64,000 bases of DNA from Nesterenkonia sp. (GTDB taxonomy: Bacteria > Actinomycetota > Actinomycetes > Actinomycetales > Micrococcaceae), in NCBI RefSeq assembly GCF_029265375.1, contig NZ_JAJUJJ010000002.1, positions 1-64,000 of the forward strand, written 5' to 3'. The notes beneath the pieces are model-generated. The model was not told the origin of the DNA and made no database searches. It worked only from the letters and a program-made list of their open reading frames with translations. The position numbers were made by a program, and so were the translations under genes. Of this stretch, positions 47,979 through 64,000 are shown one piece after another. Positions within the stretch are counted from its first letter, which is position 1, and every line of letters starts with the position of its first letter.

Positions 47979-48841
47979 GTACCGACCCGACCTCTGGGCA
48001 GGGGTCCGCTGCAGCCGCGGCGGATCCCGGAGAAACCCAGCACACTGAATCCCTGTACCGACCGCTTCCTGCTCCCGCATGGACTCTGGCGGCCATCGCC
48101 GCCGGCTCCCTGGTCATCCTCGGCACCTATCTGTGGGTGCTGACCAGCCAGCCAGCCACGCTCGGCCAGGATCTGGGCCACACCACTCTGGGTGTGATGC
48201 TCGGCTATTTGACCGGCGCCGCTCTCATCGCCGCCGGCACACTCCCCCGCATTCCGCGCAGCGTCTACGCGCTCATGCCCGTCGCGATCGCTCTGAACAT
48301 CGTGGTGGGTCAGGTGGTGGGAACCCTCACGCCCATCCCGCTCTATCTGGACTCTCTGGGCACGGTAGTTATCGGCGTCATCGCCGGTCCCGCCGCCGGA
48401 GCCCTGACCGGCATCCTCAGCAACGTCATCTGGGGTGTGACCATCAACCCCACCGTCATCGCCTTCACCGCCGGCGCGGCGTTCATCGGTGCCGCCGCCG
48501 GCTGGGCCGCCCGCTCCGGCGCCTTCCGCGCGCTGTGGTGGGCCGTACTGGCCGGGGCCGTGGCCGGAGTTCCCGCCGGCGCACTGGGTGCACCCGTGGC
48601 GGCGTACCTGTTCGGCGGCGGACTTGGCGTGGGCACCGGCGGCGCCGTGGCCACTCTGCAGGCCGCCGGCCTGGAAATGCTGCACGCGACCTTCGCCCAG
48701 TCGGTAGTCAGCGACATCGCCGATAAGGCCATCATCTTTGCGCTGGCCTTTGCCGTGCTGTGGGCCCTGCCGCGCCGTATGCGCGGACGGTTCCCCTTCA
48801 CAGCGCATTCCTTCCGGCGCACCTCACCGCGCACCCGGTGA
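47975..48841 (+). CDS. ECF transporter S component
   Basis: A 288-residue membrane protein with about six hydrophobic helices after a ~45-residue polar N-terminus. It has the ECF substrate-specific features: LTPIPLYLDSLGTVVIGVIA, a typical S-component loop, and Ala/Gly-rich helices. It binds the small-molecule ligand; the type (not BioY, ThiT or RibU by inspection) is undefined. ATGA overlap with the nucleoside hydrolase and GTGA overlap with the T component point to a dedicated transporter. Confidence 0.85.
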   Translation: MSTDPTSGQGSAAAAADPGETQHTESLYRPLPAPAWTLAAIAAGSLVILGTYLWVLTSQPATLGQDLGHTTLGVMLGYLTGAALIAAGTLPRIPRSVYALMPVAIALNIVVGQVVGTLTPIPLYLDSLGTVVIGVIAGPAAGALTGILSNVIWGVTINPTVIAFTAGAAFIGAAAGWAARSGAFRALWWAVLAGAVAGVPAGALGAPVAAYLFGGGLGVGTGGAVATLQAAGLEMLHATFAQSVVSDIADKAIIFALAFAVLWALPRRMRGRFPFTAHSFRRTSPRTR

Positions 48842-49674
48842 CCACTCCCGACGGCGCCGGCAGCCCACGTTCTCTTAGGACGCCGGCGCCGACCGTGATG
48901 CACCCCTCCACCGAGCTGGTGCTGCTGGGCTGCGCCCTCCTGCTGGTCTACGGGGTGGCCTCACCGGTGGTGCCGGCGTCGGTCCTGGTGCTCTCCTGCC
49001 TGGGAGCGGTGCTCTCCACGCGGGTGCGCTTTGCGCGCTGGCTGGCGGCGCTGGTCGTACTGGCCGGTCCCATGCTGATCATGGTCGGCATCATCCAGGG
49101 GCTCTTCTATCCGGGAGAGGCCGTCACGGTGCTCTGGCAGGCTGGACCCGCCGCCCTCACGGTGGAGGGACTGGCGGTGGCGGCTCAGCTGTGGCTACGC
49201 GTGGCGGCCATGATTGCCCTGTGCGCCCTGCTGGCCTTCGCCTCTAACGCCTCGCGCGTGTTCGACGGCCTGGTGGGGCTGCGTCTGCCCCTGAGCGTGG
49301 CCTATATCTGCGCCACCGCCATGACCCTGGTGCCGCTGATCCGTCGTCGCACGTCCCAGGCTCTGGATTCCCGCGCGGCCCGTGGCTGGGCGACGGACCG
49401 GTGGACTATTCGGGTGCGCCTGCTGCCCGGGATCCTCGCCGGGCTGCTGACCACCTCGCTGGTCCAGCTGGATCAACGCCACGATGCGCTGGTGCAGCGC
49501 GGATTCGGCCGGCACCGTCATCCCACGCCGGCGCGGACCTACCGTAAGGCTACCGGCGAGCGCGCACTGCGGTGGGCGGCACCGGTGCTGAGCGTGGCTC
49601 TGGTCACCGCCTCCCTGACCGATGTTCTTGCGCTGCCCTCAGCAAGTGACCTCCTGGAGGTGCTCCGTGGCTGA
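48838..49674 (+). CDS. ECF transporter T component
   Basis: A 278-residue transmembrane protein (EcfT). Hydrophobic helices occupy residues ~25-150, and the cytoplasmic coupling helix carries the Ala-Arg-Gly motif (SRAARGWATD), which contacts the ATPases. GTG at 48838 is chosen for its 4-bp overlap with the S component; ATG at 48898 is an alternative. Confidence 0.85.
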   Translation: MTTPDGAGSPRSLRTPAPTVMHPSTELVLLGCALLLVYGVASPVVPASVLVLSCLGAVLSTRVRFARWLAALVVLAGPMLIMVGIIQGLFYPGEAVTVLWQAGPAALTVEGLAVAAQLWLRVAAMIALCALLAFASNASRVFDGLVGLRLPLSVAYICATAMTLVPLIRRRTSQALDSRAARGWATDRWTIRVRLLPGILAGLLTTSLVQLDQRHDALVQRGFGRHRHPTPARTYRKATGERALRWAAPVLSVALVTASLTDVLALPSASDLLEVLRG

Positions 49675-51295
49675 TCTTCCCTCTGCTCGCTCCGCCGGGT
49701 CCACCCCCCTGCTGCAGCTGCGCGGTGTGAGCTTCTGGTACCCGGAGGTGACATCCGACCACGCAACCGCGCCGGCTGCGCTGCAGGACGTCGCCCTGAG
49801 CCTGGCCGCCGGTGACGCCGTGGCCGTGCTGGGCCCCCAGGGGTCGGGGACCTCAACTCTGTGCCGTGCCGCCGCCGGGTTGCTGGCCGAACACGGGCGG
49901 CTCACCGGCAGCGTCACCGTCTGCGACGCTGCGCTCCCCGGTCAGGAGTCCGCTCAACCTGCCGGCGTCGCACCTGTGGCCCTGCTGGGCGATGATCCAG
50001 AGGCCCAGCTGACCGGCATGGCCTCGGTGATCCTGGATGAGATCCAGCTCCCGGGGCGACTGACCGGGCACCCGCTGTCCGAATGCGCGGCCCGGGCCCA
50101 GCAGGTGATGGAACTGCTGGGCATCGCTGAGCTTGCCGGCCGCCGGGTGGAGGAGCTCTCCGGAGGCGAGCGCCAGCTGACGGCCTTGGCCTCCCTGCTC
50201 ACGCTGGACCCGGCGGTCCTCATCCTGGATCAGCCCAGTCTCTCGCTCGACGCCGCGGCCCGGGCTCGCCTGCTCAACGCACTGCGGCAGCACTGCACGG
50301 CGGGTGGGGCCGTGCTGATCGCCGCCCACCAGTGGGACGAGGTGACGGCGTTCTGTCCGCGCACCCTGTTCCTAGAGGCCGGGTCGCTGCAGAACGCGTC
50401 ACTGACGAACACCGCGAAACGGGACGACGACGTCGCCCGCCTCCTCAGTCCGGCAGCTGTCGACGATGCCAGCACTGCAGCAAACCGCTCCTCACACAAC
50501 GCCGGAAGCCCGACTTGTGCCGCCCGCGGGGTGTGGGATACCACCGGGGCCGCAGCGTCCCCCACCATCGCAGAGGTTCCGGTCTCCGGGCCGTCCTCCG
50601 CACCGGGGTGGTCGCCCCTCCTGCAGACCCGGGGCCTGACCGTTGTCCGGGGCGGGAGCACTGTTCTGAATGGCGTAGACCTGTCCCTGATCCCGGGCAC
50701 CATCACGGGCGTGCTTGGTCCCAACGGAGCGGGGAAATCGACGCTGCTGCGTGCCGTGGCCGGGCTTCTGCCGAACAGAGCCACCGGCGCGGGGGCCACC
50801 ACGGTGTCTGGGACTGTCCTGGGCCCCGCCGGTGTGGACCTCACGAATCTGCCGGCCTATCAGCGCGCCGGCCACCTCGCCTGGGTGGGGCAGGATCCCG
50901 GGGTACAGCTCTCTGCCTTCACGGTGGAGAAGGAACTCTGGCAGACCCGCAGAGGTGAGGGGCGACGTCGTCGTGCACCCTCGGCGGACGAAGTGGCCGA
51001 GGTGCTCGAGCGCACCGGACTGTCCGAGCACGCCCAGACCCACCCCTATGACCTGACGCCTGCCCAGCGCAAGGATGTGGTGATTGCAGCGGCGCTGCTG
51101 CTGCAACCGCGCGTACTGCTGCTGGATGAACCCACCCTGGGCCGCGACGGGCCCTCGATGGAGCGGCTGACCCGTCTGCTGCGCGGCCTGGCGCATGCCG
51201 GCTGCGCGGTACTGCTGACCACCCATGACCATCGCTGGGCGCAGACGCTCTGCGACACCCTGATCACGCTGACCAAGACCCCGAGGACATCATGA
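49667..51295 (+). CDS. Fused ECF ATPase (EcfA-EcfA') with one dead site
   Basis: A 542-residue protein with two ABC domains. Domain 1: Walker A GPQGSGTST, with Thr62 instead of Lys (codon 49850-49852); signature ELSGGERQ intact; Walker B LILDQ, with Gln189 instead of Glu. Domain 2: Walker A GPNGAGKST (K357) and Walker B LLLDEPT (E488) intact, but the signature is LTPAQ (463-467). Thus only the composite site made of domain-2 Walker motifs and the domain-1 signature should hydrolyse ATP. GTG start at 49667 with GGAGG six bases upstream; overlaps EcfT by 8 bp. Confidence 0.9.
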   Translation: MADLPSARSAGSTPLLQLRGVSFWYPEVTSDHATAPAALQDVALSLAAGDAVAVLGPQGSGTSTLCRAAAGLLAEHGRLTGSVTVCDAALPGQESAQPAGVAPVALLGDDPEAQLTGMASVILDEIQLPGRLTGHPLSECAARAQQVMELLGIAELAGRRVEELSGGERQLTALASLLTLDPAVLILDQPSLSLDAAARARLLNALRQHCTAGGAVLIAAHQWDEVTAFCPRTLFLEAGSLQNASLTNTAKRDDDVARLLSPAAVDDASTAANRSSHNAGSPTCAARGVWDTTGAAASPTIAEVPVSGPSSAPGWSPLLQTRGLTVVRGGSTVLNGVDLSLIPGTITGVLGPNGAGKSTLLRAVAGLLPNRATGAGATTVSGTVLGPAGVDLTNLPAYQRAGHLAWVGQDPGVQLSAFTVEKELWQTRRGEGRRRRAPSADEVAEVLERTGLSEHAQTHPYDLTPAQRKDVVIAAALLLQPRVLLLDEPTLGRDGPSMERLTRLLRGLAHAGCAVLLTTHDHRWAQTLCDTLITLTKTPRTS

Positions 51296-52014
51296 GCACT
51301 CCTGTGACCCCCTTCGCCCAGGTCGGCAGCCGGTTCTACCCGACCCTGCTGGCGCTGCTGGCCGCGTTCTATCTGATCTCCAACATCGCCGCGACCAAGA
51401 CCATGGCCTTTGACCTCGGCTTCGCTGAATGGGTGGTGGACGGCGGGGTGTTCCTGTTCCCGCTGACCTATCTGATCGGCGGGCTGATCGCGGAAGTCTA
51501 CGGTTTCCGGGCCGCGTTCCGGGCCGTGCTGGTGGGTTTCAGTGTGATGGTCATCGGCGCGGTGGTCTTCGGTCTGGTCACCGCCTCTCCGGCCACAGAG
51601 GGCGCGTGGAATCAGGAAGCCTTCGAGATCCTCTTCGGCTGGGACGGGGTCTACCTGCGGATCCTGGTGGCCTCACTGCTGGCATTCCTGGCCGGACAGC
51701 TGGTCAATGCGGTGGTGATCGTCCGGATCAAGGCGCGCTTCGGCGAACGGAACCTCTGGGCACGGCTGATGTCGTCCACCGTCTTCGGGCAGATCGTGGA
51801 CACGTTCCTGTTCGGTCTGGTGGCCTTCAGCGCGTTCACCGCGTTCCTCGGGCTGGAGCCCATGATGAGCTGGGGCGAGTTCGGCAACTACCTGGTGCTG
51901 GGCGTGATCTACAAGTGCCTCATCGAATGGGTGCTGCTGCCGGTGACCTATGCGGTGGTGGGCGCGCTCAAGCGCCGCGAGCCCAGCTACCTGGGTGGGA
52001 GACCTAGCCGTTAA
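51292..52014 (+). CDS. YhhQ/QPTR-type queuosine precursor transporter
   Basis: A 240-residue membrane protein of the DUF165/YhhQ family, which imports preQ0/preQ1-type queuosine precursors. About six helices; diagnostic stretches are AFYLISNIAATKTMAFDLG, FPLTYLIGGLIAEVYGF and VDTFLFGLVAFSAF, with the conserved Glu of AEVYG. Coupled to the ECF ATPase gene by ATGA. Together with a nucleoside hydrolase and ECF system it supports a deazapurine salvage role for the operon. Confidence 0.9.
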   Translation: MSTPVTPFAQVGSRFYPTLLALLAAFYLISNIAATKTMAFDLGFAEWVVDGGVFLFPLTYLIGGLIAEVYGFRAAFRAVLVGFSVMVIGAVVFGLVTASPATEGAWNQEAFEILFGWDGVYLRILVASLLAFLAGQLVNAVVIVRIKARFGERNLWARLMSSTVFGQIVDTFLFGLVAFSAFTAFLGLEPMMSWGEFGNYLVLGVIYKCLIEWVLLPVTYAVVGALKRREPSYLGGRPSR

Positions 52015-52082: not shown

Positions 52083-53735
52083 TCAGTCCTGGCGGCACTG
52101 CTGCGCGGTTGCTTCGGAAATGCGTCCATCGGCGCGGTCCGCTGCGAGCTGCGCTTCCGCACGCTCCTCCGGAGGACCATAGCCGCCGCCGCCCGCTGTC
52201 TCGATCGAGGCGGTCTGTCCCGGCTGCAGGACGGTGTAACCGTGGTCGACGGGCTGTGCGTCCTCGCTAAGAACACATCGGGCAGATTGCCCCGGGCCGC
52301 CTCCAAAGAGCCCCCAGGGCTGCGATTTCTGTCGGCTCGTATCTAACCAGAAGTGGACGTCGGGGGCCTCCACCCGAATCTTGCGCCGGATACCCATGCC
52401 ACCACGGTGGCGTCCTACGCCGCCGGAGTCCTCTATCAGCTCATAGGACTCCACTACCAGTGGGTACTCGGCCTCTAGACTTTCCACCGGCAGGTTGGAG
52501 GTGTTAGTCATGTGCACCTGCACTCCATCGAGGCCGTCTTTGTCATGACAGGCTCCACTGCCGCCCCCGATCGTTTCCAAGTACACGAAGTCTCGACCGC
52601 GGGAAGCGTCATGTCCCGAGAAGTGCACCCCCGTAACGGCTCCGTTTGAGGCTGCAGTCACTCTTTCGGGCAGAGCATCCACGAGAGCACCATGAATGAG
52701 GTCGACGACTCGTTGGCACGTCTCGATACGGCCATTGACTGCCGCTGGCGCCGTGCAGTTGAGGATGGATCCCTCGTCCGCGACGATCGTAACCGGCCGG
52801 TACAGTCCCGCGTTCGGCACGATGTCGGGGTCAATCAGTGTCTTTAAGGTGTAGTAAACCGTCGCATAGAGCCCTGTCCAAACGACATTGACGCTGGCCC
52901 GCACCTGCGGGGGGTTACCTGAGAAGTCGAAGAGCATCTCGTCCCCGCTGATCCGGATCCGGACGCGCAGAGTCAGCTCTTCGTCCAGCTCGGGAGCGTC
53001 GAATAGATCCTCGAAAGTGTACTCACCATCAGGAAACTCAGTGATAGCAGCACGAGTCCTACGCTCGGTGTAGTCAAGAAGGTTCGACGAAACCCCTTCA
53101 ATGACATCTACTCCGTAGCGTGAACAGAGCTCCTGATACCGAGTGATGGCCACGCCCAATGCAGCTTCCTGTGCGCGCAGGTCCGCAGTCCGTTCCTCGG
53201 GGATTTGGCAGTTCAGCAGGATAAGACTGAGTAATTCCTCCTGCTGGACCCCTTCGCGAACCAAATGCACCGGGGGGATGCGGATCGCCTCTTGGAAGAT
53301 GTGCGCGTGCCCACGGTCACCAAAATCCGCATGGTGGGCCAGGGTAGCCGCCCACGCAGAAATTCGACCACCCACGAAGATGGGGGATGCCAGGACGATG
53401 TCGGGCAGGTGCGAGCCGCCTCCGGTGTAGGGATCGTTGCCGATAAAGACATCTCCCTCACGGATATCCGCCTCACTGAAGCGGCCCCTGATGGCACCAA
53501 CGATGCCCATTAGAGAGCCGAGATGCATAGGGGAACCGCCCTCGTCCTGAGCCAGCGCTAGGCCCTCAGCGTCGAAGAGGCCAGCGGTACAGTCCCGTCG
53601 TTCTTTGATATTGGGGGAGAAAGCTGCTTTCACCAATGTCTCGCCCATTTCCTCGACGATGGTAGAGAGAGCTGAGCCCACTACCTCGACGATGACCGGG
53701 TCTAGCTGGCCAGTGGCACGTGCTGAAGTTGTCAT
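52083..53735 (-). CDS. hyuB: Hydantoinase/5-oxoprolinase subunit B
   Basis: A 550-residue protein of the HyuB family, the partner of HyuA. It has the family's VGSALSTIVEEMGETLVKAAFSPNI N-terminus, the FIGNDPYTGGGSHLPDI stretch, and the C-terminal GGVGRHRGGMGIRRKI and GGGYGPPEERA. HyuAB enzymes open cyclic amides (N-methylhydantoin, 5-oxoproline) or carboxylate ketones using ATP. ATG at 53735 overlaps the hyuA stop (ATGA). Last gene of the cluster. Confidence 0.9.
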   Translation of the reverse strand: MTTSARATGQLDPVIVEVVGSALSTIVEEMGETLVKAAFSPNIKERRDCTAGLFDAEGLALAQDEGGSPMHLGSLMGIVGAIRGRFSEADIREGDVFIGNDPYTGGGSHLPDIVLASPIFVGGRISAWAATLAHHADFGDRGHAHIFQEAIRIPPVHLVREGVQQEELLSLILLNCQIPEERTADLRAQEAALGVAITRYQELCSRYGVDVIEGVSSNLLDYTERRTRAAITEFPDGEYTFEDLFDAPELDEELTLRVRIRISGDEMLFDFSGNPPQVRASVNVVWTGLYATVYYTLKTLIDPDIVPNAGLYRPVTIVADEGSILNCTAPAAVNGRIETCQRVVDLIHGALVDALPERVTAASNGAVTGVHFSGHDASRGRDFVYLETIGGGSGACHDKDGLDGVQVHMTNTSNLPVESLEAEYPLVVESYELIEDSGGVGRHRGGMGIRRKIRVEAPDVHFWLDTSRQKSQPWGLFGGGPGQSARCVLSEDAQPVDHGYTVLQPGQTASIETAGGGGYGPPEERAEAQLAADRADGRISEATAQQCRQD

Positions 53736-55789
53736 GCTTCTTCTCCGATCGTAATCACGAGGTTTCGCAGGGAGTCGACGACGCAACGGTCCCCGGGCAA
53801 CAGAATTGTGGTGGTGTCCATCTGCTCGACAACGGCAGGACCTTGAACCACGTTGCCGGGCATCAACTTGCTGCGGTCGTAGACCGTGATGCTGCGGAAT
53901 CCCTCCTTGGGGTCGAAACAGGTCTCACGCGTCCCGATTGCGGCGCCCGAAGGATCTTCCCCGCCCAGTTCGCTATGACGCAGTTCCACGCGAGGGGCGC
54001 TGCCCTGGGCCTCTACTCGGAACGTCACCGCCTCAAGACGGGCTTCCGGTGAGGAGTAGCCATAGACCCGCTCATGCTCTGCGTGGAATGCCTGCGCAAT
54101 GACCTCCATCCCGTCCTCACCTAGTTCTTCTGGCATTTCCACCGGCAACTCGAAGTTCTGACCCGCGTACCGCAAGTCCAACCGGCGTACAAGGCGACGA
54201 CCCTCTTCAGCGACATCCTCCTCGGCGAACCACGCCGCGGCTTCAGCGGAGAGTTCAGCGAAGACGTTAGCTACCTGTGAAGCGGTCTCGTGGGTGAGGC
54301 TCGTGATACGAGTGCGCATGAAGTCTGCCTTCACGTCAGTCATCAGCAACCCCATGGCTGACTGAGCGCCAGGTATCTCGGGAACAACTACGCGGGACAT
54401 CCCCAGTTCCCGGGCGAGTCGGGAAGCGTGCAGCGGTCCAGCTCCTCCAAAAGGCACCAGAGCATAGTCCCGAGGGTCGTAGCCCTTCTGCACCGAGACC
54501 ACCCGCAAGGCACGCGCCATATTGGCTGTGACGACGCGGAGTATCCCCAAGGCGGTTTCCTCCACGGAGAGGCCGAGGGGATCTGCGAGGCGACGCACGG
54601 CATCAACAGACTTCTCGCGGTCAATCTTCATCTGCCCGTTGAGCAGATATTCAGGGTTGAGCATCTGCAGGACCACATTGGCGTCGGTAACTGCTGCGCG
54701 CTCACCATTGCCATAGCAAGCCGGCCCCGGGAACGCGCCCGCGCTCTCCGGGCCCACGCGCAGGTGACCACCCGTGTCGATCCATCCCAGAGAGCCTCCC
54801 CCAGCCCCGACGGTATGGATGTCCAACATCGGCGACCGAATAGGCCGGCCGTCCAGCTCCATGCCAGAAGTGACCTTGGGACGCCCCCCTTGGACCAGCG
54901 AGATGTCCGAAGACGTACCACCCATGTCGAAGGTGATGATGTCATCAAAGCCCGCGGCAGAGCAGATCTGCGCCGCCCCGACTACACCCGTGCTCGGGCC
55001 TGAGAGGACCAAGCGCACCGGCATGGCCTCGGCAGTCGCGAAGGGAATGACTCCGCCGTTGCTCTGAGTGATGTGTGGAACGGCGGTGAGGCCTTCGGCG
55101 GCAAGCTTCTCTCGCAGAGCCGCAAGGTAGCGGTAAACGACAGGTCCAACATATGCATTGGTGACCACGGTAGAAAGCCGCTCATACTCACGGAACTCCG
55201 GCAGCACCTCACTAGACAGGGAGACGTAAGCCTCGGGATGCTCTTCCCGGATGATGTCAGCGATGCGCCGTTCATGCTTCGGGTCCACATAGCTGTAAAG
55301 CAGGCAAACGGCCACCGCTTCAACACCGGCAGACTTCAGCTGCCGTGCCGCTTCGCGAACCTCGCCCTCGTCAAGCTCCCTCTCCACCTCGCCTGTGCTG
55401 CGCAGGCGTTCTGCCACCTCGAAACGGTGCCTCCGAGCCACGAATGGGGCGGGCTTATCAGCACGGGCGTCGTACATATCGGGGCGTCTGCCACGTCCCA
55501 ACTCAAGAAGGTCCCGGAACCCTTCGGTAGTGATCAGCCCGGTGAGCACGCCGTTGCCGGTGAGCAGCGTGTTGGTACCGACTGTGGTGCCATGGGCGAA
55601 GTAGTTGACCTCGCTAATATTTCGGCCCCCGATCTGATCAAGGATCTCGGAAACGCCACGTAGGATCGCCCGGCCCGGATCGTCGGGGGTGCTGGATACC
55701 TTACGCACATGCACATGCTGGGTAACGTCGTCGAAGGCGACGACGTCGGTAAACGTCCCACCTGTGTCGACACCGATACGAAGACTCAT
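53732..55789 (-). CDS. hyuA: Hydantoinase/5-oxoprolinase subunit A
   Basis: A 685-residue ATPase subunit. The N-terminal actin-like fold has RIGVDTGGTFTDVVAFDD; TTVGTNTLLTG, MGGTSSDISLVQGG and GGGSLGWID follow; the C-terminus carries the AEGLEAVTF-like end domain. Together with HyuB it performs ATP-dependent cyclic amide hydrolysis. It is coupled both to the PfkB gene (ATGA at 55786-55789) and to hyuB, so the kinase and the hydrolase are made together. Hydantoin, 5-oxoproline or imidazolinone are all possible substrates. Confidence 0.92.
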   Translation of the reverse strand: MSLRIGVDTGGTFTDVVAFDDVTQHVHVRKVSSTPDDPGRAILRGVSEILDQIGGRNISEVNYFAHGTTVGTNTLLTGNGVLTGLITTEGFRDLLELGRGRRPDMYDARADKPAPFVARRHRFEVAERLRSTGEVERELDEGEVREAARQLKSAGVEAVAVCLLYSYVDPKHERRIADIIREEHPEAYVSLSSEVLPEFREYERLSTVVTNAYVGPVVYRYLAALREKLAAEGLTAVPHITQSNGGVIPFATAEAMPVRLVLSGPSTGVVGAAQICSAAGFDDIITFDMGGTSSDISLVQGGRPKVTSGMELDGRPIRSPMLDIHTVGAGGGSLGWIDTGGHLRVGPESAGAFPGPACYGNGERAAVTDANVVLQMLNPEYLLNGQMKIDREKSVDAVRRLADPLGLSVEETALGILRVVTANMARALRVVSVQKGYDPRDYALVPFGGAGPLHASRLARELGMSRVVVPEIPGAQSAMGLLMTDVKADFMRTRITSLTHETASQVANVFAELSAEAAAWFAEEDVAEEGRRLVRRLDLRYAGQNFELPVEMPEELGEDGMEVIAQAFHAEHERVYGYSSPEARLEAVTFRVEAQGSAPRVELRHSELGGEDPSGAAIGTRETCFDPKEGFRSITVYDRSKLMPGNVVQGPAVVEQMDTTTILLPGDRCVVDSLRNLVITIGEEA

Positions 55790-56622
55790 GAGTTGACTAC
55801 CTTCGGGTCTGTTTCGGATACGGGATGATAGGAGATCGGATGTCCGAATGCTCCGTGGATGAGGCATACCTGGGCCGCATGGGCACTCGCCGAGGCAGCT
55901 ACCGTTTTGGCATCACGGCCACTGAGCAGACCTACCAGCACCGAGGCTATGAAGGCGTCCCCCGCCCCCAGGGTGTCAATCACAGCCACCCGCTCAGCTT
56001 TCTGGAACAGCACACCTTCCGGAGTGCCCAGGTAGGCCCCCTCACCCCCACGCGTGGCGATGACGTTCTTGGTACCCCGTTCCAGCATTGCCTCTACCAG
56101 CTCGAGGGATTCCTCCCGTGAAAGATGGTTTGTCGAGAAGCTAGCCAAAAAGAGGTGCTGGGCCAGCTCTACCGACTCTTTGAGAGTGAAGCGGCTGCCG
56201 AAGTCAAAGGACACTTTCGATTGTCCTGCCATTTCGGGAATGTTCGACCGCAGCGACCCGGTGTACGCCGTATGGACCGTGTCAAAGTTCGCCATAGCCT
56301 TCAGTTGGCTTTGGTTCAGGTCGAAGGGCTGGACGGATCGATCGGAGCCAACAAACACCCGGTCCGTATCCACGATCTCGACCTCGGCATAAGCGTTGTG
56401 ACCGTGAGCCACCTCTGTCAGGTCAGTGGAGACGCCCTCCACCTCCAGCGCCCGCTTCAGATGCCTGCCGCCCTCGTCATCTCCCAACACGCCCATGTAT
56501 GCCGCACGGGCTCCGAGCCGGGAGGCGAAGACGGCGACGTTGACCGCGTTGCCACCGGGGTAGCCGACGCCTAGGCGCCTGTAACGGTCGATGACGTTGT
56601 CGCCGGCTCCGAGGATCTTCAT
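55786..56622 (-). CDS. PfkB sugar kinase, FrlD-like
   Basis: A 278-residue ribokinase-family enzyme. N-terminal MKILGAGDNVIDRY and LGVGYPGGNAVNVAVFASRL match fructoselysine 6-kinase FrlD better than ribokinase; the C-terminal anion hole and base is in VIDTLGAGDAFIASVLVG (D of GAGD). It probably phosphorylates the sugar carbon 6 of an Amadori compound for the SIS deglycase encoded just upstream (TAATG overlap). Confidence 0.85.
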   Translation of the reverse strand: MKILGAGDNVIDRYRRLGVGYPGGNAVNVAVFASRLGARAAYMGVLGDDEGGRHLKRALEVEGVSTDLTEVAHGHNAYAEVEIVDTDRVFVGSDRSVQPFDLNQSQLKAMANFDTVHTAYTGSLRSNIPEMAGQSKVSFDFGSRFTLKESVELAQHLFLASFSTNHLSREESLELVEAMLERGTKNVIATRGGEGAYLGTPEGVLFQKAERVAVIDTLGAGDAFIASVLVGLLSGRDAKTVAASASAHAAQVCLIHGAFGHPISYHPVSETDPKVVNS

Positions 56623-57641
56623 TAGTACTGCACCTTGTACATGTATCGACGGACAGAGGTGTCATGCCCACGACGGGCAGCAACGTGGTCGAGCACCCGA
56701 CGTTCGGCACTCATGAGGGCGATGACGCTCAGGTCTTCACGAGCCTGCCCTTCGATGCCTGGGAGGCTGAACTCCTTGGTATCGACCACACCCAGCTTAG
56801 ACGTGTACTTCTGGCCGAACGTGACGACGCGCTCCCCCAAAGGACGGCTGCTGTCCTCTGCCAAGAGGGCGATAAGGGGAGTCTCCTCAAGGATCATCTC
56901 GAAAGGCCCGTGGAAGAAGTCCCCTCCGTTGATCGCTGCGGAGTTCATCCACTGCATCTCCTGGAAATAACACCAGGCCATCATCTTGGCCATACCGTAG
57001 GCCGGCCCCGCGCCGACGACATAGGAAAGCGGCGAGTCCTCCAGAACGTCGGCGATGCGCTCTCCAGCGATAGCCACCTCATCCTTGACGAGACGCAGAG
57101 CTTTAGGAAGGGCCGGCAGTGCAGCGCGCAGCGTAGCCGCCCGGTCCTCTGCGCCGAACGCCTCGAGCAGCGCCAGTGCGATCTGCTCGTTATGCACCAG
57201 CTTGGGCTCGGTAATGGAGATGGTGTCCGGATAATCCAGGTGAACGTCCCCCACGCGAGACAACCCGCTGTCGCCTTCGCGGGCGATCACCGCGACAGTA
57301 GCACCTCGTTCCTTGGCGAACTCTGCCGCGGCAACGGTTTCCGGAGTGTTGCCGGAGTGGGAAGCAGGCACGACCAGGGCTGTCTCGTCAATTCCCTGGG
57401 GATCTCGGGAGGTAAATTCGGCGCTGGTCAGGCGTTGTACTGACAACCCACGCGCATAACGGTCAAGGAGATCAAAAGCCGGGTAGGTTCCAAAGTGCGA
57501 GCCGCCGCATCCGACGAGGAACACCTTGTCCACACCCTTCTCCACCGCCTGAGCCACAATGGCCCGGGCCTTGTCGTTTTGGTCCAGGGCGTGCTGAACA
57601 CACGCCTCAAAGTCGTCAGGGACGGGAATGATTTCGCTCAT
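56622..57641 (-). CDS. SIS-domain deglycase, FrlB-like
   Basis: A 339-residue protein with two SIS domains. The first has FLVGCGGSHFGTYPAFDLL and VVPASHSGNTPETVA, the second GGDFFHGPFEMILEE, as in fructoselysine-6-phosphate deglycase FrlB. FrlB removes the amino acid from the phosphorylated Amadori product, giving glucose 6-phosphate and a free amino acid. ATG at 57641 with AAAGGA twelve bases upstream. First gene of the FrlB-FrlD-HyuA-HyuB unit; a LacI-type operator lies 40 bp upstream. Confidence 0.88.
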   Translation of the reverse strand: MSEIIPVPDDFEACVQHALDQNDKARAIVAQAVEKGVDKVFLVGCGGSHFGTYPAFDLLDRYARGLSVQRLTSAEFTSRDPQGIDETALVVPASHSGNTPETVAAAEFAKERGATVAVIAREGDSGLSRVGDVHLDYPDTISITEPKLVHNEQIALALLEAFGAEDRAATLRAALPALPKALRLVKDEVAIAGERIADVLEDSPLSYVVGAGPAYGMAKMMAWCYFQEMQWMNSAAINGGDFFHGPFEMILEETPLIALLAEDSSRPLGERVVTFGQKYTSKLGVVDTKEFSLPGIEGQAREDLSVIALMSAERRVLDHVAARRGHDTSVRRYMYKVQY

Positions 57642-57680
57642 GAGCGCTATGAATCCTTTGAAACAGGGAAAGATGAACAG

Positions 57681-57732
57681 TTGGGAGCGTTCCCAACGCA
57701 TATAGCCTTACCTACTTTGGGAACGGTGTCAA
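57681..57732 (-). promoter_or_regulatory. LacI-type operator with TTGACA promoter upstream of the SIS gene
   Basis: TTGGGAGCGTTCCCAA (57681-57696) is a 16-bp dyad, imperfect at one pair, with the central CG typical of LacI/GalR sites. Related half-sites TTGGGAACG (57717-57725) and TTGGAACG follow. On the - strand TTGACA (57732-57727) could be a -35; a -10 at normal spacing is poor, so the promoter core is uncertain. Confidence 0.6.
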
Positions 57733-58023
57733 CTGTTGGAACGAGCTGATTGAGCAAGTTCTTGCACCCCCTTGGGACAACCGAAGATTCGCCTTACGAA
57801 CGTCAAGAAGGCACTTCTCCAGCGGACTGGACCGCGGGGTGAGCGACTCGCGACCGCACGGCGCGCAGGGAAAGACCCCATGGTCCACATCAAAGGCATG
57901 GACAATAAAGGGCGAGAATTGAGACCGTTACCAGGGTGAAGCCTGCCCGGACACAGTCAAGATAGTGCCCCAAATGTAATGGCGCCACATCATAGTGCGG
58001 GACCCCTCCGCCTGCGCGATTCC
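57733..58023. other. Gene-free stretch between the two halves of the catabolic cluster
   Basis: About 290 bp between the LacI-type site and the end of the fused ATPase gene. No protein-coding frame with coding character, tRNA or terminator hairpin was seen. It separates transporter genes from catabolic genes, which may be separate transcripts. Confidence 0.6.
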
Positions 58024-59688
58024 TTATGCAACCGCAGCGGAACGCCGTGCACGCTGCACCACCGGGTCGGGAACCGGCGCCGCATCGATCAGCTTCTGGG
58101 TATAAGTCTCCGTGGGAGTACGGAGAACATCTGCAGTCCTGCCACTCTCCACCAGCTGCCCCTTCTGGAGCACCCCCACATGGTCCGCCAGGAGTTCAAC
58201 TACAGCGAGATCGTGGCTGATGAATAAGCAGGAAAATCCGAGCCTTTCCTGCAGTTCCTGGAAGATCTCCAAAACTGCTGCTTGGACTGATACGTCAAGC
58301 GCTGATGTCGGCTCGTCAGCGATGAGCACGGAAGGTTCCAGCGCCAGAGCACGGGCGATACCGATTCGCTGGCGTTGTCCCCCTGAAAGCTCGTGAGGGA
58401 AGCGCGACGCCCATTCCGCTGGAAGCTTGACCATCCGCAGCAGCTCGGCCACTCGGTCCCGGCGTTCCCCAGCGCTCATGCCTTTCCTCTGGACCACCAT
58501 GGGCTCGGCGATCGATTCCCCGATACTCACCCGTGGATTGAGAGAGGAAGCTGGGTCCTGGAACACCATGCCGTATTGGCTTCGCAACTCCTGAGCTTTG
58601 CCCCTGGCCCCGACGGCGATGCCGTTGATCCTAATCGAGCCGGACTCCACGGGAGCCAATCCCACCACTGCTTTGCCAATAGTGCTCTTGCCCGACCCAG
58701 ACTCACCTACCAACCCTAGGATCTGGCCTTGCGGGATGGTCAGGCTAACGTCCTTGACCGCCTGGAACCCGGGACGACCCCAGCGTCCGGGATAGCGCAC
58801 ATGCAGGGCTTGGATGTCGAGGGCCGCGGTGGTCCCGGCATCCTCCTGGTGAGGCACGGGAGTCGGTTCGGGGTCGATGATGGACTCAATGCGCGGGACC
58901 GCTGCAAGCAGGGCACGGGTGTATTCATGCTCCGGCGAAGCGAAGAGACTACGCACCTCGGCGCGCTCGACGATTTCGCCATGTCGCATGACTATGACGT
59001 CATCGGCCATATCGGCGACGACTCCCATGTCATGCGTGATCAGCACGATGGCCATATCCATCTCAGTCTGGAGACGACGAAGCAGAGCAAGAATCTCTGC
59101 CTGCACTGTGACATCGAGCGCCGTAGTAGGTTCATCTGCAATGAGCACCGACGGGTTCTTGGAGATCGCTATGGCAATCATTGCCCTCTGCCGCTGCCCA
59201 CCGGAAAGCTGATGGGGGAAGCTCTTGATCCGACGCTCCGGTTCCGGGATTCCTACCAGTTTCAAGAGCTCCACGGCCCGCGCTCTCGCCTGCGCGGAGG
59301 GGACTTTCTCGTGAGCCTGCAGTGCATCGACGATCTGCCGCCCAATGGTGAAGACCGGATTCAGCGCCGTCATCGGTTCCTGAAAAATCATCGCAACGTC
59401 GTTGCCCCGGACTGCTCGCAGGCGCTCCTTGGAGGCACTGACGAGGTCCTCCCCACGCAACAACGCTTCGCCTTCGCGCACCGCGTTGGAGGGCAGCAGG
59501 TCTAACACCGCCATAGAGGTGACTGACTTGCCAGAGCCAGACTCTCCCACAATCGCCAAGGTCTTCCCGGGCTCGACAGCAAAGGACACTTCACGAGTAA
59601 CCCAGGTGGTGTCGTCATCCTTGTTGAATCCGACACTAAGGTTGCGCACTTCGAGAACCGGTGGAACTGTCTGGGTCTGCATTTTCAC
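58024..59688 (-). CDS. Dipeptide/oligopeptide-type ABC importer ATPase, fused DppD-DppF
   Basis: A 554-residue double ATPase. Domain 1 has Walker A GESGSGKSV, signature LSGGQRQR and Walker B VLIADEPTTALDV; domain 2 has GESGSGKST, LSGGQRQR and VLIADEPTSALDV. Both are intact, unlike the two asymmetric systems elsewhere in this window. It powers the permeases encoded upstream. Start: GTG at 59688 overlaps the TIM-barrel stop (GTGA); ATG at 59682 is the alternative, ten bases after AGGAGG. Confidence 0.93.
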   Translation of the reverse strand: MKMQTQTVPPVLEVRNLSVGFNKDDDTTWVTREVSFAVEPGKTLAIVGESGSGKSVTSMAVLDLLPSNAVREGEALLRGEDLVSASKERLRAVRGNDVAMIFQEPMTALNPVFTIGRQIVDALQAHEKVPSAQARARAVELLKLVGIPEPERRIKSFPHQLSGGQRQRAMIAIAISKNPSVLIADEPTTALDVTVQAEILALLRRLQTEMDMAIVLITHDMGVVADMADDVIVMRHGEIVERAEVRSLFASPEHEYTRALLAAVPRIESIIDPEPTPVPHQEDAGTTAALDIQALHVRYPGRWGRPGFQAVKDVSLTIPQGQILGLVGESGSGKSTIGKAVVGLAPVESGSIRINGIAVGARGKAQELRSQYGMVFQDPASSLNPRVSIGESIAEPMVVQRKGMSAGERRDRVAELLRMVKLPAEWASRFPHELSGGQRQRIGIARALALEPSVLIADEPTSALDVSVQAAVLEIFQELQERLGFSCLFISHDLAVVELLADHVGVLQKGQLVESGRTADVLRTPTETYTQKLIDAAPVPDPVVQRARRSAAVA

Positions 59689-60557
59689 TTATCCTCCTCA
59701 AGAAATCCCGCCTCGCGGGCCGCTCGGCGCAAGTTCTCGGTGCCATAGACACAGACATCTTGACTGCTAGCGAGGGAGCGCCATGTGTGTGTTCTGGTTG
59801 CCATAGTTGGCAAGGTCACAGGGAAGTGTTCGTATACCAGCAATCCTGAGTAATCGATGTCCCGAAGAGCGGCGAAGACTGAACGCCAGGGCACCTGGCC
59901 GGTTCCAGGGACCCCTCGATTACTCTCCACCACGTGTACGTGCTTAAGTCGCTCTCCCACCAGGCGAATAGCCTCGGCGGGGTCTGTCTCTTCGATGTTC
60001 ATATGAAAGGTGTCCAACTGGACTGCAATATGGGTCGAGCCCACCGCATCAGACAGCTGGACGGCGTCCTCGGCAGAGTTGAGGAAATACCCTGAGTAGC
60101 GGCTCACCGGCTCGAGGGTAAGGGTGATGCCGTACTCCTCAGCCAAGGGGGCCACCTGCTGGAGTGCCTGCACAGATCTCTCCCACTCTTCGGTGGTTCG
60201 CCCCCGACCGGCAAAGACTCCGTTAGCGGAGTGGATTCCTCCGGCGATAGTCGAAGCCCCGAGTCTCGATGCAAGACGAATGCACCTTTCGAGATGCGCT
60301 ATCCCGCGACTTCTGATTTCAGGGTCGTCGCTGATGGTCGAAGCGTCAGCCGCCAGGGCAGTGCCAAGGACCACCTGCAGGCCAGTCCGATCTGCGGCCT
60401 CAAGCACCTCTTGCTCCGGAAAGTTTCCGGGGTCGGCCACATGAACTTCCACAGCATGGAGACCGCACCGGGCCACCTCATCGAACACCAACCCAGGATC
60501 CTCTGCGATGTCATGGACGAACATCTGGCTGTGCGCTCCGAGCCTTATCCCGTTCAT
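59685..60557 (-). CDS. Sugar-phosphate isomerase/epimerase TIM barrel, FrlC-like
   Basis: A 290-residue TIM-barrel protein with metal-ligand motifs HAVEVHVADP, LTLEPVSRY, AVQLDTFHMNIEE and KHVHVVESNRG. The family includes FrlC, which epimerises psicoselysine to fructoselysine, tagatose 3-epimerases and IolE. Placed in an operon that also encodes FrlB- and FrlD-like enzymes, an epimerase for an imported Amadori isomer is the most economical reading. Start ATG 60557 has AGGG nine bases upstream; ATG 60566 is in frame but with its site one base away. Confidence 0.8.
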   Translation of the reverse strand: MNGIRLGAHSQMFVHDIAEDPGLVFDEVARCGLHAVEVHVADPGNFPEQEVLEAADRTGLQVVLGTALAADASTISDDPEIRSRGIAHLERCIRLASRLGASTIAGGIHSANGVFAGRGRTTEEWERSVQALQQVAPLAEEYGITLTLEPVSRYSGYFLNSAEDAVQLSDAVGSTHIAVQLDTFHMNIEETDPAEAIRLVGERLKHVHVVESNRGVPGTGQVPWRSVFAALRDIDYSGLLVYEHFPVTLPTMATRTHTWRSLASSQDVCVYGTENLRRAAREAGFLEEDK

Positions 60558-60568
60558 TCCTGTCATCC

Positions 60569-61444
60569 CTAGGCCACCGTAGCCTTGGGAGCCTGTCGGA
60601 CAGCCCCTCGCTTGCGTGAACGCCGTGGGTCCAAAGACTTCTCCAGTGCATCGGCCAGGACAGAGAAACACAGGACGGTGGCAACGACGGCCGCACTGCT
60701 GAAGAAGAGCAGACCAGGGGATGTCATCATGATGGCCTGGCCCTCGGCGATCATTCCGCCCCATGACGGGGTAGGGGGCACCACGCCCAGTCCTAGGTAA
60801 CTCAGTCCCGAGGACAGGAGCATGGAGGTTGCCACCGTCATGGAAAGTTGGACCAGGACAGGCGGCAAGGCTCCAGGCAGGATGACCAGGAAGAGCACAC
60901 GCAGTGAGGAACTGCCCATCACCCGGCTGGCCTGCACGTACTCCAAGTTGCTGATGGTCAGCACCTCGCCGTAAACGACGCGGGCGAACTGCGGCGCGAA
61001 CAGAATGCCCATTGTCAGGATGAGAGTCAGCGATCCCGGCCCGAACAGCGTGACCACCAGTAGAGCAAAGACGATCGGAGGGAAGGCCAGGATCACTTCG
61101 ATACCACGCATTGCGAGCATTCGGGGAAACCCCTTGGTCGTCCCGCCGATGAGCCCGATGACGACACCGAGCACGGCCGCCAGAGCAGCAGCGCCGAAGG
61201 ATACGAGCAGGTCCACCCGAGCTCCAGTGATCAGACGGGAGAATATGTCCCGTCCAAACTGATCGGTACCGAGCAGATGGTCTGCTTCAGGAGAGATGAG
61301 ACGCTCATTGCCGTGTGCAACGGGGCTGTGCGGAGCCAACCACGGGGCCAGCAAGGCACCAGCGACGAGAAGCGCTAAGAAGAGCGCTGCAAGGAAATTA
61401 CCGGGAGACTTCAGCTCGCGGAGGAAAGCGGCCAGTCGGTTCAT
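60569..61444 (-). CDS. Peptide-type ABC importer permease, DppC-like
   Basis: A 291-residue inner-membrane permease with about six helices. The N-terminal DppC signature LLGTDQFGRDIFSRLITGAR is present, as is the EAA-loop region EYVQASRVMGSSSLRVLF. Overlaps the DppB stop by one base (TGATG). The C-terminal tail is basic (RRSRKRG). Confidence 0.93.
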   Translation of the reverse strand: MNRLAAFLRELKSPGNFLAALFLALLVAGALLAPWLAPHSPVAHGNERLISPEADHLLGTDQFGRDIFSRLITGARVDLLVSFGAAALAAVLGVVIGLIGGTTKGFPRMLAMRGIEVILAFPPIVFALLVVTLFGPGSLTLILTMGILFAPQFARVVYGEVLTISNLEYVQASRVMGSSSLRVLFLVILPGALPPVLVQLSMTVATSMLLSSGLSYLGLGVVPPTPSWGGMIAEGQAIMMTSPGLLFFSSAAVVATVLCFSVLADALEKSLDPRRSRKRGAVRQAPKATVA

Positions 61445-62391
61445 CAGTCCCTCCCCCTCGGGTCTATGAAGCCGTAGAGAATGTCTACGACAATGTTGAG
61501 AAGCACAAACAACGCGGCAATCACTAGAACGGTGCCCTGGACCACTGGATAGTCCCGGGTAGTCACACCATTGATCAGGAGCTCAGAGAGACCCGGCCAG
61601 CTGAACACGCGTTCGACGATCACGGTTCCTCCCAGGAGTGCGCCCATCTGCAGACCGGAGACGGTGACTACCGAGGTAAGGGAGTTCCGCAGGACATGCC
61701 GGGAGAAGACCCGCGACTCCTTCAGGCCCACGGAACGCCCGGTGCGCACCCAGTCTTGTTCACCGACTGAAAGAACCGCGGTACGCGTCATACGGGCCAC
61801 GACAGCGGTGAAGGCCAAAGAGAGCGAGATGGTGGGCATGATGAGGGTCTGGATATGGCCCACCGGATCGTCGCTGAAAGGAACGTAACCGCCGGAGGGC
61901 AACCACTGCATTTGAACACCGACGAAGTACACCAGCACCACGGCTGCCACATAAGCAGGGATCGCCACGCTAAAGGAGGTCACGACCATCAGCACCCGGT
62001 CGATCCAACCGCCCCGCCGTCCCGCTAGGGCTCCAAAGAGCACTCCAAAAAGCACCGAGACTAGAGTGGTAGCGAATACCAACTGCAACGTGCGAGGTAG
62101 CCGTTGACCGACTAGTTCTGTAACCGGCGTCCCGCTGCGCAGCGACTCCCCCAAAGAACCGGTGAGAAGTTGTCCCAAGAAACGGGTGTACTGCTCCCAG
62201 AGAGGCAGGTGGAGGCCCAACTGCTCGCGCAAGTTTTGGATGGCTTCCTCGGTAGGCGTGGCACCGGTCCCAGTGAGGATGATCCGGGCGGGGTCGCCGG
62301 GCACCATGTGCAGCGCCAAAAACACCACTGTGGCGACGACCCAGAGCAGGACCAACCCCACTGCGAGACGCTTGCCGATCATGGCGAGCAT
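61444..62391 (-). CDS. Peptide-type ABC importer permease, DppB-like
   Basis: A 315-residue permease with six helices. The N-terminal LALHMVPGDPARIILTGTGA stretch and the EAA loop (DWVRTGRSVGLKESRVFSRH) are diagnostic of the DppB/OppB family. It forms the channel with DppC. Start ATG 62391 has AGGAGCTC upstream. Confidence 0.93.
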   Translation of the reverse strand: MLAMIGKRLAVGLVLLWVVATVVFLALHMVPGDPARIILTGTGATPTEEAIQNLREQLGLHLPLWEQYTRFLGQLLTGSLGESLRSGTPVTELVGQRLPRTLQLVFATTLVSVLFGVLFGALAGRRGGWIDRVLMVVTSFSVAIPAYVAAVVLVYFVGVQMQWLPSGGYVPFSDDPVGHIQTLIMPTISLSLAFTAVVARMTRTAVLSVGEQDWVRTGRSVGLKESRVFSRHVLRNSLTSVVTVSGLQMGALLGGTVIVERVFSWPGLSELLINGVTTRDYPVVQGTVLVIAALFVLLNIVVDILYGFIDPRGRD

Positions 62392-62418
62392 GTGAGCTCC
62401 TTACTCGTCAGTACGTGT

Positions 62419-62451
62419 CTGTGGGGCCAGCACACTGTGCCGGCCCCACAG
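62419..62451 (-). terminator. Intergenic hairpin between binding-protein and permease genes
   Basis: Perfect 10-bp stem CTGTGGGGCC (62419-62428) and GGCCCCACAG (62442-62451). In ABC operons such hairpins lower read-through and stabilise the upstream mRNA, giving more binding protein than permease. Confidence 0.6.
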
Positions 62452-62470
62452 GAATGGACTCTCTGGCTGC

Positions 62471-64000
62471 TCACTCCTCGGTGAAGTGAGCCTGATCCAG
62501 GGTGTACCCAGAGGTGAAGGTCAGGAAGCCGGGGATGTGGGCGAAGCCTTCAAGCTCGGTCGAGTAACCGTAAGCCTGGGAACGCCAGGCCAGGCCGATC
62601 ACCGGCGCCTCTTCTAGGATGTACTCGCCCAGCTCGTTATAGACCTCTTGCCTCTCCGCAAGGTCACTAGCCCGGCGACCCTTGTCGAGCAGATCGTTGA
62701 CGGTCTCGTCGTCATAACCATAGGGCGCGTTCTGAGCTCCTGCCGGCGTCAGCATCTGATCCATCCATGCCGGGTCGTTGGTGGTACCCACGGTGCCGTA
62801 CACGGCGATGTCATATTCACCTTCCGCGCCCAGGTCAAGCCGAGTGGGCCAGTCGGGCAAGTTCATCTCGAGCTCGATCCCGATCTGCTCAAGGTCGTTC
62901 TGCACGGAAAGCGCAGTGTTCTGGTGGAAGTCATACTGGGATGAGGAGAGCATTCGGGCCGTGAAGCCATCCGGGTAGCCGGCTTCCGCTAGAAGCTCGC
63001 GAGCTCGGTCCAAATCCTGCTCGTACCACTTGTCCAGGTCCGGGTTGTAGAACTCGCTGTCCTCTGGCACGGGCATCCCGTACATTGGTGCACCTTCACC
63101 ACCTAACGCCGATTCAACTACAGCCTCACGGTCCACCGCGTAAGCCACGGCCTGACGAACCCGAGGGTCGCTGAAGGGACTGTCCGACTCGACGTTGAAC
63201 TGCAGGTACATGAAGGGACCCATAGTCTCGTCGAGGACCAGCCCATCGTTGGCTTCCACCTGGGCGTAGTTCGTCCAGCCAACGAACGAGATCATGTCGG
63301 CGCTGCCCGTCAATAGGGCATTGTCACGGGCAGCCTGGTCTGGGAGCACCTGAAACTCGATCTCATCGAAGTGAGGTTGTTCGTCCTCGTAGTAGTCCTC
63401 GAACCGCTGGACAACGAACGCGGATCCCTCCTCATAGCTGACGTATTGGAAGGGCCCCGCCCCCACGTAAGTGGGCCCGTCGTTCCCGATGGTTTCGCTG
63501 GGCAGAATCGCCCCTGAAACGTCAGCCAGGTAGGAGAGGAACGCCGCGTCGGGTTCCTCCAGGTGAACAATGACTGTGCGCTCGTCGGGAGTTTCGATAG
63601 ATTCGATGCCTTGGGCGACCGGATAGAGCTTGGCCACTGTGTCCGGGTCCGCAAGGTGCTCCAAGGTGGCCTTGACGTCCTCACTGGTGAGGTCGGTGCC
63701 GTCGTGGAAAGTCAGGCCTTCTCGAAGGTGGAAAGTGTAGGTCTGAAAGTCCTCGTCCTCAAACTCTTCAGCCAGGGCAGGGACAATTTCGCCACTCTCG
63801 TCATACATGACGAGCCCCCGGTGGAGGACGCTGTTGAGCATCATCGAGGCGCTGCCCTGGTTCTGAGGGGTAACGAGACTAGGCACGTCGCTATCAAGAC
63901 CGAAGGTCAAGGTACCGCCACCCTGACCGTCCCCGTCACCACCCTCTGCATTACTACCGCACGCGCTGAGCACGAGTGTCGCTGACAGAGCCAGCACCCC
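62471..64000 (-). CDS. Extracellular solute-binding lipoprotein, family 5 (peptide type), start beyond window
   Basis: About 508 visible residues. The N-terminal LALSATLVLSACGSN contains a lipobox (LSAC), so the mature protein is a membrane-anchored lipoprotein; the first residues of the signal lie past base 64000. The family-5 (DppA/OppA/NikA) signature region is at ~residues 50-75, and VRQAVAYAVDREAVVE and QYDFHQNTALSVQNDLEQIG are typical. It delivers the substrate to DppBC-DppDF. Family 5 proteins bind peptides but also opines and sugar conjugates, so the ligand is open. Confidence 0.9.
   Translation of the reverse strand, partial: GVLALSATLVLSACGSNAEGGDGDGQGGGTLTFGLDSDVPSLVTPQNQGSASMMLNSVLHRGLVMYDESGEIVPALAEEFEDEDFQTYTFHLREGLTFHDGTDLTSEDVKATLEHLADPDTVAKLYPVAQGIESIETPDERTVIVHLEEPDAAFLSYLADVSGAILPSETIGNDGPTYVGAGPFQYVSYEEGSAFVVQRFEDYYEDEQPHFDEIEFQVLPDQAARDNALLTGSADMISFVGWTNYAQVEANDGLVLDETMGPFMYLQFNVESDSPFSDPRVRQAVAYAVDREAVVESALGGEGAPMYGMPVPEDSEFYNPDLDKWYEQDLDRARELLAEAGYPDGFTARMLSSSQYDFHQNTALSVQNDLEQIGIELEMNLPDWPTRLDLGAEGEYDIAVYGTVGTTNDPAWMDQMLTPAGAQNAPYGYDDETVNDLLDKGRRASDLAERQEVYNELGEYILEEAPVIGLAWRSQAYGYSTELEGFAHIPGFLTFTSGYTLDQAHFTEE

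Follow-up and report, generated by a model that had tools for sequence, protein, structure and literature searches.

The DNA analyzed here (the window) comprises the first 64,000 nucleotides of contig NZ_JAJUJJ010000002.1 (C6) of Nesterenkonia sp. (assembly GCF_029265375.1), whose genome of 2.72 Mb is in 58 contigs. At its right end lies a cluster of nine genes, all on the minus strand, running from position 52083 past 64000. Open reading frame (ORF) and family searches identified an importer set with a binding protein related to AgaA, a TIM-barrel protein, an FrlB-like deglycase, an FrlD-like kinase, and the hydantoinase/oxoprolinase subunits HyuA and HyuB (Table 1). The order of transcription is binding protein, DppB, DppC, TIM barrel and DppDF, followed, after a gap of 382 bp, by FrlB, FrlD, HyuA and HyuB. 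A second promoter/operator lies inside this gap, and the cluster is therefore read as two transcription units. Together with a divergent LacI-family gene beyond the window, the genes form a 13 kb block, called the island here, which is most likely a foreign, horizontally acquired catabolic regulon. Its G+C content is 0.598–0.617 in each 2 kb bin between 52 and 64 kb, compared with 0.625–0.711 in the other bins of the window and 0.643–0.711 to the right of it (1 kb bins from 67 kb onward). An earlier note, made by a reader of the sequence letters, had described a strand-consistent nine-gene cluster, overlaps of 1–4 bp along FrlB-FrlD-HyuA-HyuB and a lower G+C content; all three were confirmed, the overlaps being 1, 4 and 4 bp.

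Table 1. Features of the island and its right border (window positions; C6 marks contig coordinates beyond the window).
Feature	Position	Strand	Evidence or remark
HyuB, hydantoinase B/oxoprolinase subunit	52083..53735	-	PF02538, 567 bits; ATG start overlaps HyuA stop by 4 bp
HyuA, ATP-dependent hydantoinase A/oxoprolinase subunit	53732..55789	-	PF01968, PF05378, PF19278; MSLRIGVDTGGTFTD start, overlaps kinase gene by 4 bp
FrlD-like PfkB-family kinase, proposed 6-kinase of the glycated substrate	55786..56622	-	NCBIfam fructoselysine 6-kinase, 163 bits
FrlB-like SIS deglycase	56622..57641	-	best PDB match 3eua, 175.5 bits
Promoter/operator of the enzyme operon	57682..57732	-	TTGACACCGTTCCCAA plus palindrome TTGGGA-NCGN-TCCCAA
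Fused DppD-DppF ABC ATPase	58024..59688	-	two ABC domains plus oligo_HPY; 45.2% identity to Ti-region ATPase
Xylose-isomerase-like TIM barrel, ketose 3-epimerase type	59685..60566	-	PDB 2hk0, 141.7 bits; PF01261; start codon picked by eye
DppC-type permease	60569..61444	-	PF00528; 42.7% identity to corresponding Ti-plasmid permease
DppB-type permease	61444..62391	-	PF00528, PF19300; 42.4% identity to corresponding Ti-plasmid permease
Family-5 binding protein, AgaA clade	62471..64000, on to start codon at C6 64045	-	PDB 6hlx (AgaA), 381.6 bits
Promoter/operator upstream of the binding-protein gene	C6 64130-64189		
LacI-family gene	C6 64268-65404		divergent
Lone ABC permease gene	C6 66196-67155 (L004 4197-5156)		between TetR and MFS genes

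The genome contains the palindrome TGGGANCGNTCCCA at exactly two sites, before FrlB (57682) and before the binding-protein gene (C6 64130), and the reversed control pattern gave no match in the genome. Each palindrome is preceded by TTGACACCGTTCCCAA, and in this genome the combination likewise occurs at these two sites only. Both modules also occur in Aeromicrobium phragmitis (L047), where they stand before the same two genes despite a different gene order; in 11 other related loci checked, these patterns were not found, save for a lone palindrome in one (L063). Because the operator is shared, has two sites only, and recurs in Aeromicrobium before the same two genes, the importer and enzyme operons are very probably one regulon, and the LacI-type protein presumably binds the island operator. 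That the enzymes and the importer act together, as the earlier note had held, is thus supported by an operator common to both and by the recurrence of FrlBD-HyuAB in several lineages.

Among solved structures compared with the binding protein, the runner-up to AgaA scored 180.1 bits and a dipeptide-binding protein 124 bits, so the generic "peptide importer" reading was dropped. Across 98 further genomes of the order, the best match scored 205.6 bits, and among 396 genomes sampled across the phylum (at most three candidates scored per genome), a match with E ≤ 1e-75 was found only in the genome of the window itself. In a tree of 53 rows, the window protein is one of 15 that form an AgaA clade (support 99/98); every member of this clade is encoded beside HyuAB, and the 37 rows that serve as background or are second copies all fall outside it. 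By its sequence, the protein is therefore a member of the AgaA (agropinic acid) group, apart from other family-5 proteins, and is not of a general peptide type as the earlier note had it. The loci in this tree were chosen through HyuA, FrlB or binding-protein matches. In a less circular check made through binding-protein matches, all four plasmid neighborhoods fetched (40 rows were listed) contained HyuAB: two Neorhizobium plasmids (L222, L223) with FrlB/FrlD, and two others (L187, L224), which are also in the HyuA match list, with an AgaE-like oxidoreductase. The marine-sourced Rhodobacterales plasmids L187 and L188 encode, with an AgaA-type binding protein and HyuAB, an SDR protein and a flavin adenine dinucleotide (FAD) oxidoreductase.

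HyuB is 56.6% identical over 470 residues, and HyuA 51.4% identical over 681 residues, to the HyuB and HyuA encoded near the AgaA-type importer of the octopine Ti plasmid NC_002377. HyuA proteins on Terrarubrum and Paracoccus plasmids, which also lie beside family-5 importers, are slightly closer (54–55% against 51%). In the HyuA tree, the window protein groups with HyuA of AgaA-type loci, octopine Ti plasmids included (100/99). Both subunits score below the curated NCBIfam equivalog cut-offs and can be named at family level only; the caprolactamase CapAB cut-offs of 1000 were failed with 590 and 247 bits. A role as plain 5-oxoprolinase is disfavored by PxpA, which is encoded elsewhere in the genome (PxpA was sought; PxpB and PxpC were not).

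The closest solved relatives of FrlB are deglycases: 3eua is named "putative fructose-aminoacid-6-phosphate deglycase", followed by 3fkj and 9otj-type SIS proteins at 154–166 bits and then by a score of 109.7 bits. Residue E228 is present in all 85 aligned rows, and a histidine at position 244 in 65 of them, including all 18 HyuAB-linked rows among those displayed. We take E228 and H244 to be the acid/base positions of SIS isomerases, by analogy with GlmS. For FraB and FrlB, a conserved general acid and general base are described in passages of PMC9609667. In 20 of the 85 FrlB-like rows, the catalytic histidine is replaced by glutamine (as in FFQGPFE), which perhaps marks another reaction. With 101.8 bits against a PRK11382 cut-off of 430, FrlB is a family member and not the equivalog of the E. 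coli protein; the pTiChry5 FrlB is likewise under this cut-off (130.8 bits). FrlD is below the PRK09813 cut-off of 247, yet this family is the top of 22 by 83 bits. The TIM barrel aligns with D-psicose 3-epimerase (2hk0) across residues 10–281 of 293 and is nearest to D-psicose/tagatose 3-epimerases (NCBIfam D-psicose 3-epimerase, 182 bits; cut-off 300). Its match to FrlC (PRK09856) reached 48.6 bits, with a cut-off of 305, and the FrlC identity given to it earlier was dropped.

The octopine NC_002377 region, which we take to be agaABCD-agaEFG although the record has no gene names, resembles the island in its AgaA-type binding protein, two permeases, fused ATPase, HyuA and HyuB (39–57% identity). 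It differs in having an FAD oxidoreductase, presumably in the role of AgaE, in place of FrlD and FrlB; the kinase, the SIS protein and the epimerase are absent from the region shown. Agropinic acid is N-mannityl-pyroglutamate, and the aga system opens its ring to give mannopinic acid. Both an AgaABCD-type importer and a HyuAB pair are thus present in the island, while an AgaE-type FAD oxidoreductase is absent among its genes and FrlB/FrlD stand there instead.

A closer parallel in gene content is found on pTiChry5. Beside a LysR gene, this plasmid carries LacI, an AgaA-like binding protein, two permeases, a fused ATPase, a fructoselysine-6-kinase, an SIS deglycase, HyuB and HyuA, of which the last eight genes form one strand-consistent run. 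The same set is present on pTiA47a and, again without the TIM barrel, on two Neorhizobium plasmids. In pTiChry5, HyuAB come first and in the window last, the HyuA is on another branch, and the TIM-barrel epimerase was not seen in the region examined. Its importer proteins are 65–74% identical to those of the octopine plasmid, compared with 39–45% for the window. According to passages of PMC6733357, pTiChry5 is termed chrysopine-type, and, to judge from a paper title, chrysopine-type tumors are known for Amadori-type opines. The gene set of the island is therefore not wholly new, and the view in the earlier note that known Frl systems lack HyuAB and use other uptake is not supported, since Frl enzymes, HyuAB and an importer of the Dpp type are combined on pTiChry5. 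A second FrlB/FrlD pair, with an Xaa-Pro peptidase family protein, a polyamine-type ABC importer and a divergent LacI, is encoded on pTiChry5 (L162 5726-8789) and at L164 and L165 (Agrobacterium plasmids); it is possibly another Amadori opine route. The frlBONMD-frlP system of B. subtilis shares with the island an FrlB deglycase and an FrlD kinase for Amadori compounds but uses a Type I importer, FrlONM, energized by FrlP or by the sugar-importer ATPase MsmX (passages of PMC12632257); the main text of that paper contains no words starting with hydantoin, pyroglutam or oxoprolin.

The association of FrlB, FrlD, HyuA and HyuB recurs in several lineages. Genome contigs were scanned with a four-row FrlB alignment, and the best 80 loci of at least 480 confirmed relatives were inspected. 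All four genes occur together at 16 of these 80 loci (Streptomyces six, Paenibacillus five, Herbiconiux two, and one each in Aeromicrobium, Nonomuraea and Lentibacillus), in four FrlB lineages, as well as on pTiChry5 and two Neorhizobium plasmids; the predicted co-occurrence in other genomes was thus found. The 80 loci are not independent (the six Streptomyces and five Paenibacillus are examples), and cut contigs count as misses, as does L105, which has HyuA at its end. None of 12 other FrlB neighborhoods of the order (from 297 genomes, all ORFs scanned, one neighborhood only 5 kb) contained HyuA or HyuB. Of the 20 HyuA loci of the order taken as background, none had FrlB/FrlD nearby, and three have a Dpp-type importer with a binding protein. 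To obtain them, 149 genomes were searched, 41 of which gave a match, and a single locus per genome was picked from the upper part of the list; L167, which is among the 20, also enters the trees as an AgaA-type locus. In the FrlB tree (84 rows), the 19 HyuAB-linked rows lie in four lineages, which forces at least six label changes (gains or losses). The HyuA tree (45 rows) contains one clade of window, Aeromicrobium and Streptomyces (100/99), one of Paenibacillus and Lentibacillus (100/100), and one of Herbiconiux and Nonomuraea (100/100), with pTiChry5 on a long branch; the tree label "aga" was given by layout to eight loci, six of which have an AgaE relative (absent in L130 and L167).

An AgaA-type importer accompanies the four genes in the window, in Aeromicrobium, at four of five Paenibacillus loci (at the fifth, the gene is cut) and on the Rhizobiaceae plasmids. 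In Streptomyces, a metabolite/H+ symporter gene and a gamma-glutamyltransferase gene stand beside FrlBD-HyuAB in both loci that were read out of the six (L052 15970-19072 and L048 16014-19084, with a family search on L052 only). The Herbiconiux locus L080 has an arabinose/allose/ribose-type permease and a sugar-binding protein, as does, by eye, the Nonomuraea locus L097. A gamma-glutamyltransferase gene is also near HyuAB of Roseivivax (L188). Tandem pairs of FrlB-like genes beside FrlD and LacI were seen in Phycicoccus, Pedococcus, Ornithinimicrobium and Tetrasphaera loci (L081, L082, L085, L095, L098, L102, L108).

AgaA-type import combined with HyuAB points to an N-substituted pyroglutamate, and FrlD with FrlB instead of AgaE points to a ketosyl, not a hexityl, substituent. 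1-Deoxyfructosyl-5-oxoproline (DFOP), the lactam to which fructosyl-glutamine readily cyclizes, fits both. We propose, with a probability of roughly 60%, that the island is a horizontally gained regulon whose products break down an N-(1-deoxyketosyl)-pyroglutamate, with DFOP as the likeliest candidate. The substrate, the reaction order and every enzyme activity are predictions from homology and gene content. DFOP occurs among the opines of chrysopine-type tumors and would be the keto analogue of agropinic acid. In the proposed pathway, the AgaA-like binding protein and DppBC-DppDF would import DFOP, and the LacI-type regulator would sense the substrate or a derivative and control both operons. 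FrlD would phosphorylate the sugar at C6, either before or after HyuAB act. HyuAB would open the lactam using ATP, as AgaFG is thought to do on agropinic acid. From the fructosyl-glutamate-6-phosphate so formed, FrlB would release glucose-6-phosphate and glutamate. Entry of the C3 epimer (psicosyl form) would probably be the task of the TIM-barrel epimerase; in fructoselysine catabolism, FrlC feeds in C3 epimers. Ring opening is placed before deglycation because FrlB chemistry needs an amine, and an amide nitrogen should be a poor leaving amine. Of the substrate suggested in the earlier note, an Amadori compound with a cyclic-amide part is retained, 5-oxoproline being the best of its three candidates, and the deglycation-first order is not.

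The soc system for catabolism of santhopine (fructosyl-glutamine) in Agrobacterium and Arthrobacter acts on the open form of the proposed compound but consists of other genes (socABCD), and the main text of PMC8262997 has no words starting with frl, hydantoin, oxoprolin or deglycase. Santhopine is an Amadori compound that is also present in decaying plant material (passages of PMC4231840 and PMC8262997).

Several alternatives were weighed against the DFOP pathway. The ring might be a different one, in which case another N-glycated cyclic amide (a hydantoin, imidazolone or lactam) or a lactam opine would be taken up by AgaA-like import and opened by HyuAB before FrlB acts. Passages of PMC6733357 propose that other Ti-plasmid hydantoinase/oxoprolinase pairs could open opine lactams, for example succinamopine and succinopine lactam. 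The distance of the window FrlB/FrlD from the HyuAB-linked pair of pTiChry5 is in line with a different ring. We nevertheless consider it rather unlikely, given that the binding protein is specifically AgaA-like and that agropinic acid has a pyroglutamate ring. Release of 5-oxoproline (or another ring) by FrlB, with HyuAB opening the free ring, is the order that the earlier note had proposed; it would suit the 5-oxoprolinase/hydantoinase superfamily of HyuAB and the overlap of the genes. It appears improbable, since an amide nitrogen would leave poorly in an FrlB-type reaction, the genome already encodes PxpA, which marks the usual bacterial 5-oxoprolinase, and the Aga precedent opens the ring first.

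The importer belongs to the Dpp/Opp superfamily, and the cluster might accordingly import glycated peptides or glycated amino acids in general, with HyuAB handling a side product. AgaA outscored the dipeptide-binding protein in the same structure comparison (382 and 124 bits), no gene of the island was seen to encode a peptidase, and related clusters use a symporter (a Streptomyces) or a sugar-type importer (a Herbiconiux), so that this use of the cluster is highly improbable. That HyuAB are chance neighbors acting on an unrelated compound is hardly credible: HyuAB do lie near Dpp importers without Frl genes at 3 of the 20 background loci, but the co-occurrence at 16 of the best 80 loci in four FrlB lineages, the 4 bp overlaps, and an operator that the importer has in common with HyuAB and that the rest of the genome lacks all speak against it.

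Other observations weigh against the DFOP pathway itself or limit its reach. The window HyuAB are nearer to the octopine pair (51/57% identity) than to the pTiChry5 pair (45/41%), and FrlB and FrlD of the window share only 29% and 32% identity with the HyuAB-linked pair of pTiChry5, whose other pair is closer (34.5% and 36.2%). With both sets so distant, the substrates may differ. The opening of a tertiary (N-substituted) lactam by HyuAB would be unusual chemistry. A close relative of the epimerase was found among HyuAB-linked loci only in the window and Aeromicrobium. Six HyuAB-adjacent rows fall outside the AgaA clade (Lentibacillus, L172, L175, and the second binding proteins of L127, L128 and L130); HyuAB linkage alone therefore does not imply an AgaA-type protein. 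Streptomyces, Herbiconiux and Nonomuraea keep FrlBD-HyuAB with other importers, and the argument from the importer is therefore not extended to these three or to Lentibacillus. As 64 of the best 80 FrlB loci are without HyuAB, the link is a specialization and not a rule. Long branches make the deep joins unsure in the HyuA, binding-protein and FrlB trees.

The borders of the island were compared with congeners. Of 30 genomes of the genus, only that of the window itself gave a match to the FrlB gene at E ≤ 1e-30. The gene for the queuosine-precursor transporter, whose end is at 52014, is present in 12 of the 30, including this one. Eight of the 11 other transporter-carrying genomes were compared. 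The TetR and MFS genes, which form the right flank here, share a stretch with the transporter in six of the eight, with TetR at most 0.7 kb from the transporter gene in five and 3.3 kb in one (L239); relatives of the sirtuin and ClpB genes are on this stretch in six and five, respectively, and two congeners (L237, L238) have no right-hand gene. The island was thus most likely inserted between old neighbors. Because TetR is reversed here and a lone sugar permease gene adjoins it, the right border must have been rearranged; a relative of this permease is absent at that place in the six congeners having both neighbors. The single tRNA found by ARAGORN in the window, at 29363, is distant from the island border, and no integrase was noticed among the ORFs, although no search aimed at integrases was made. 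In the left flank (47975-52014), an ECF transporter (CD3073-type S component, T component, fused ATPases) is directly followed by the YhhQ/Vut_1 queuosine-precursor transporter, which places two types of uptake for vitamin-like compounds side by side.

Among the matches listed from Creative Commons-licensed PubMed Central, no title or start of an abstract joined Frl enzymes with HyuAB, and none described a dedicated route for cyclized fructosyl-glutamine; no paper in that collection contained fructosamine, deglycase and hydantoinase all together. At about even odds, FrlB-FrlD-HyuA-HyuB may be a general unnamed bacterial module that handles cyclized Amadori compounds (glycated pyroglutamate) and was put together more than once, across three phyla, with uptake by an AgaA-type importer, a symporter or a ribose-type importer. 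In that event, a pathway of soil and plant litter would be the general case and the tumor-opine versions of the Ti plasmids its special cases, and not the reverse. If the proposal is true, it would provide a concrete, testable pathway for cyclized fructosyl-glutamine, tie the catabolism of opine lactams to bacterial deglycation, and offer candidate functions for HyuAB pairs, the substrates of which are often unknown.

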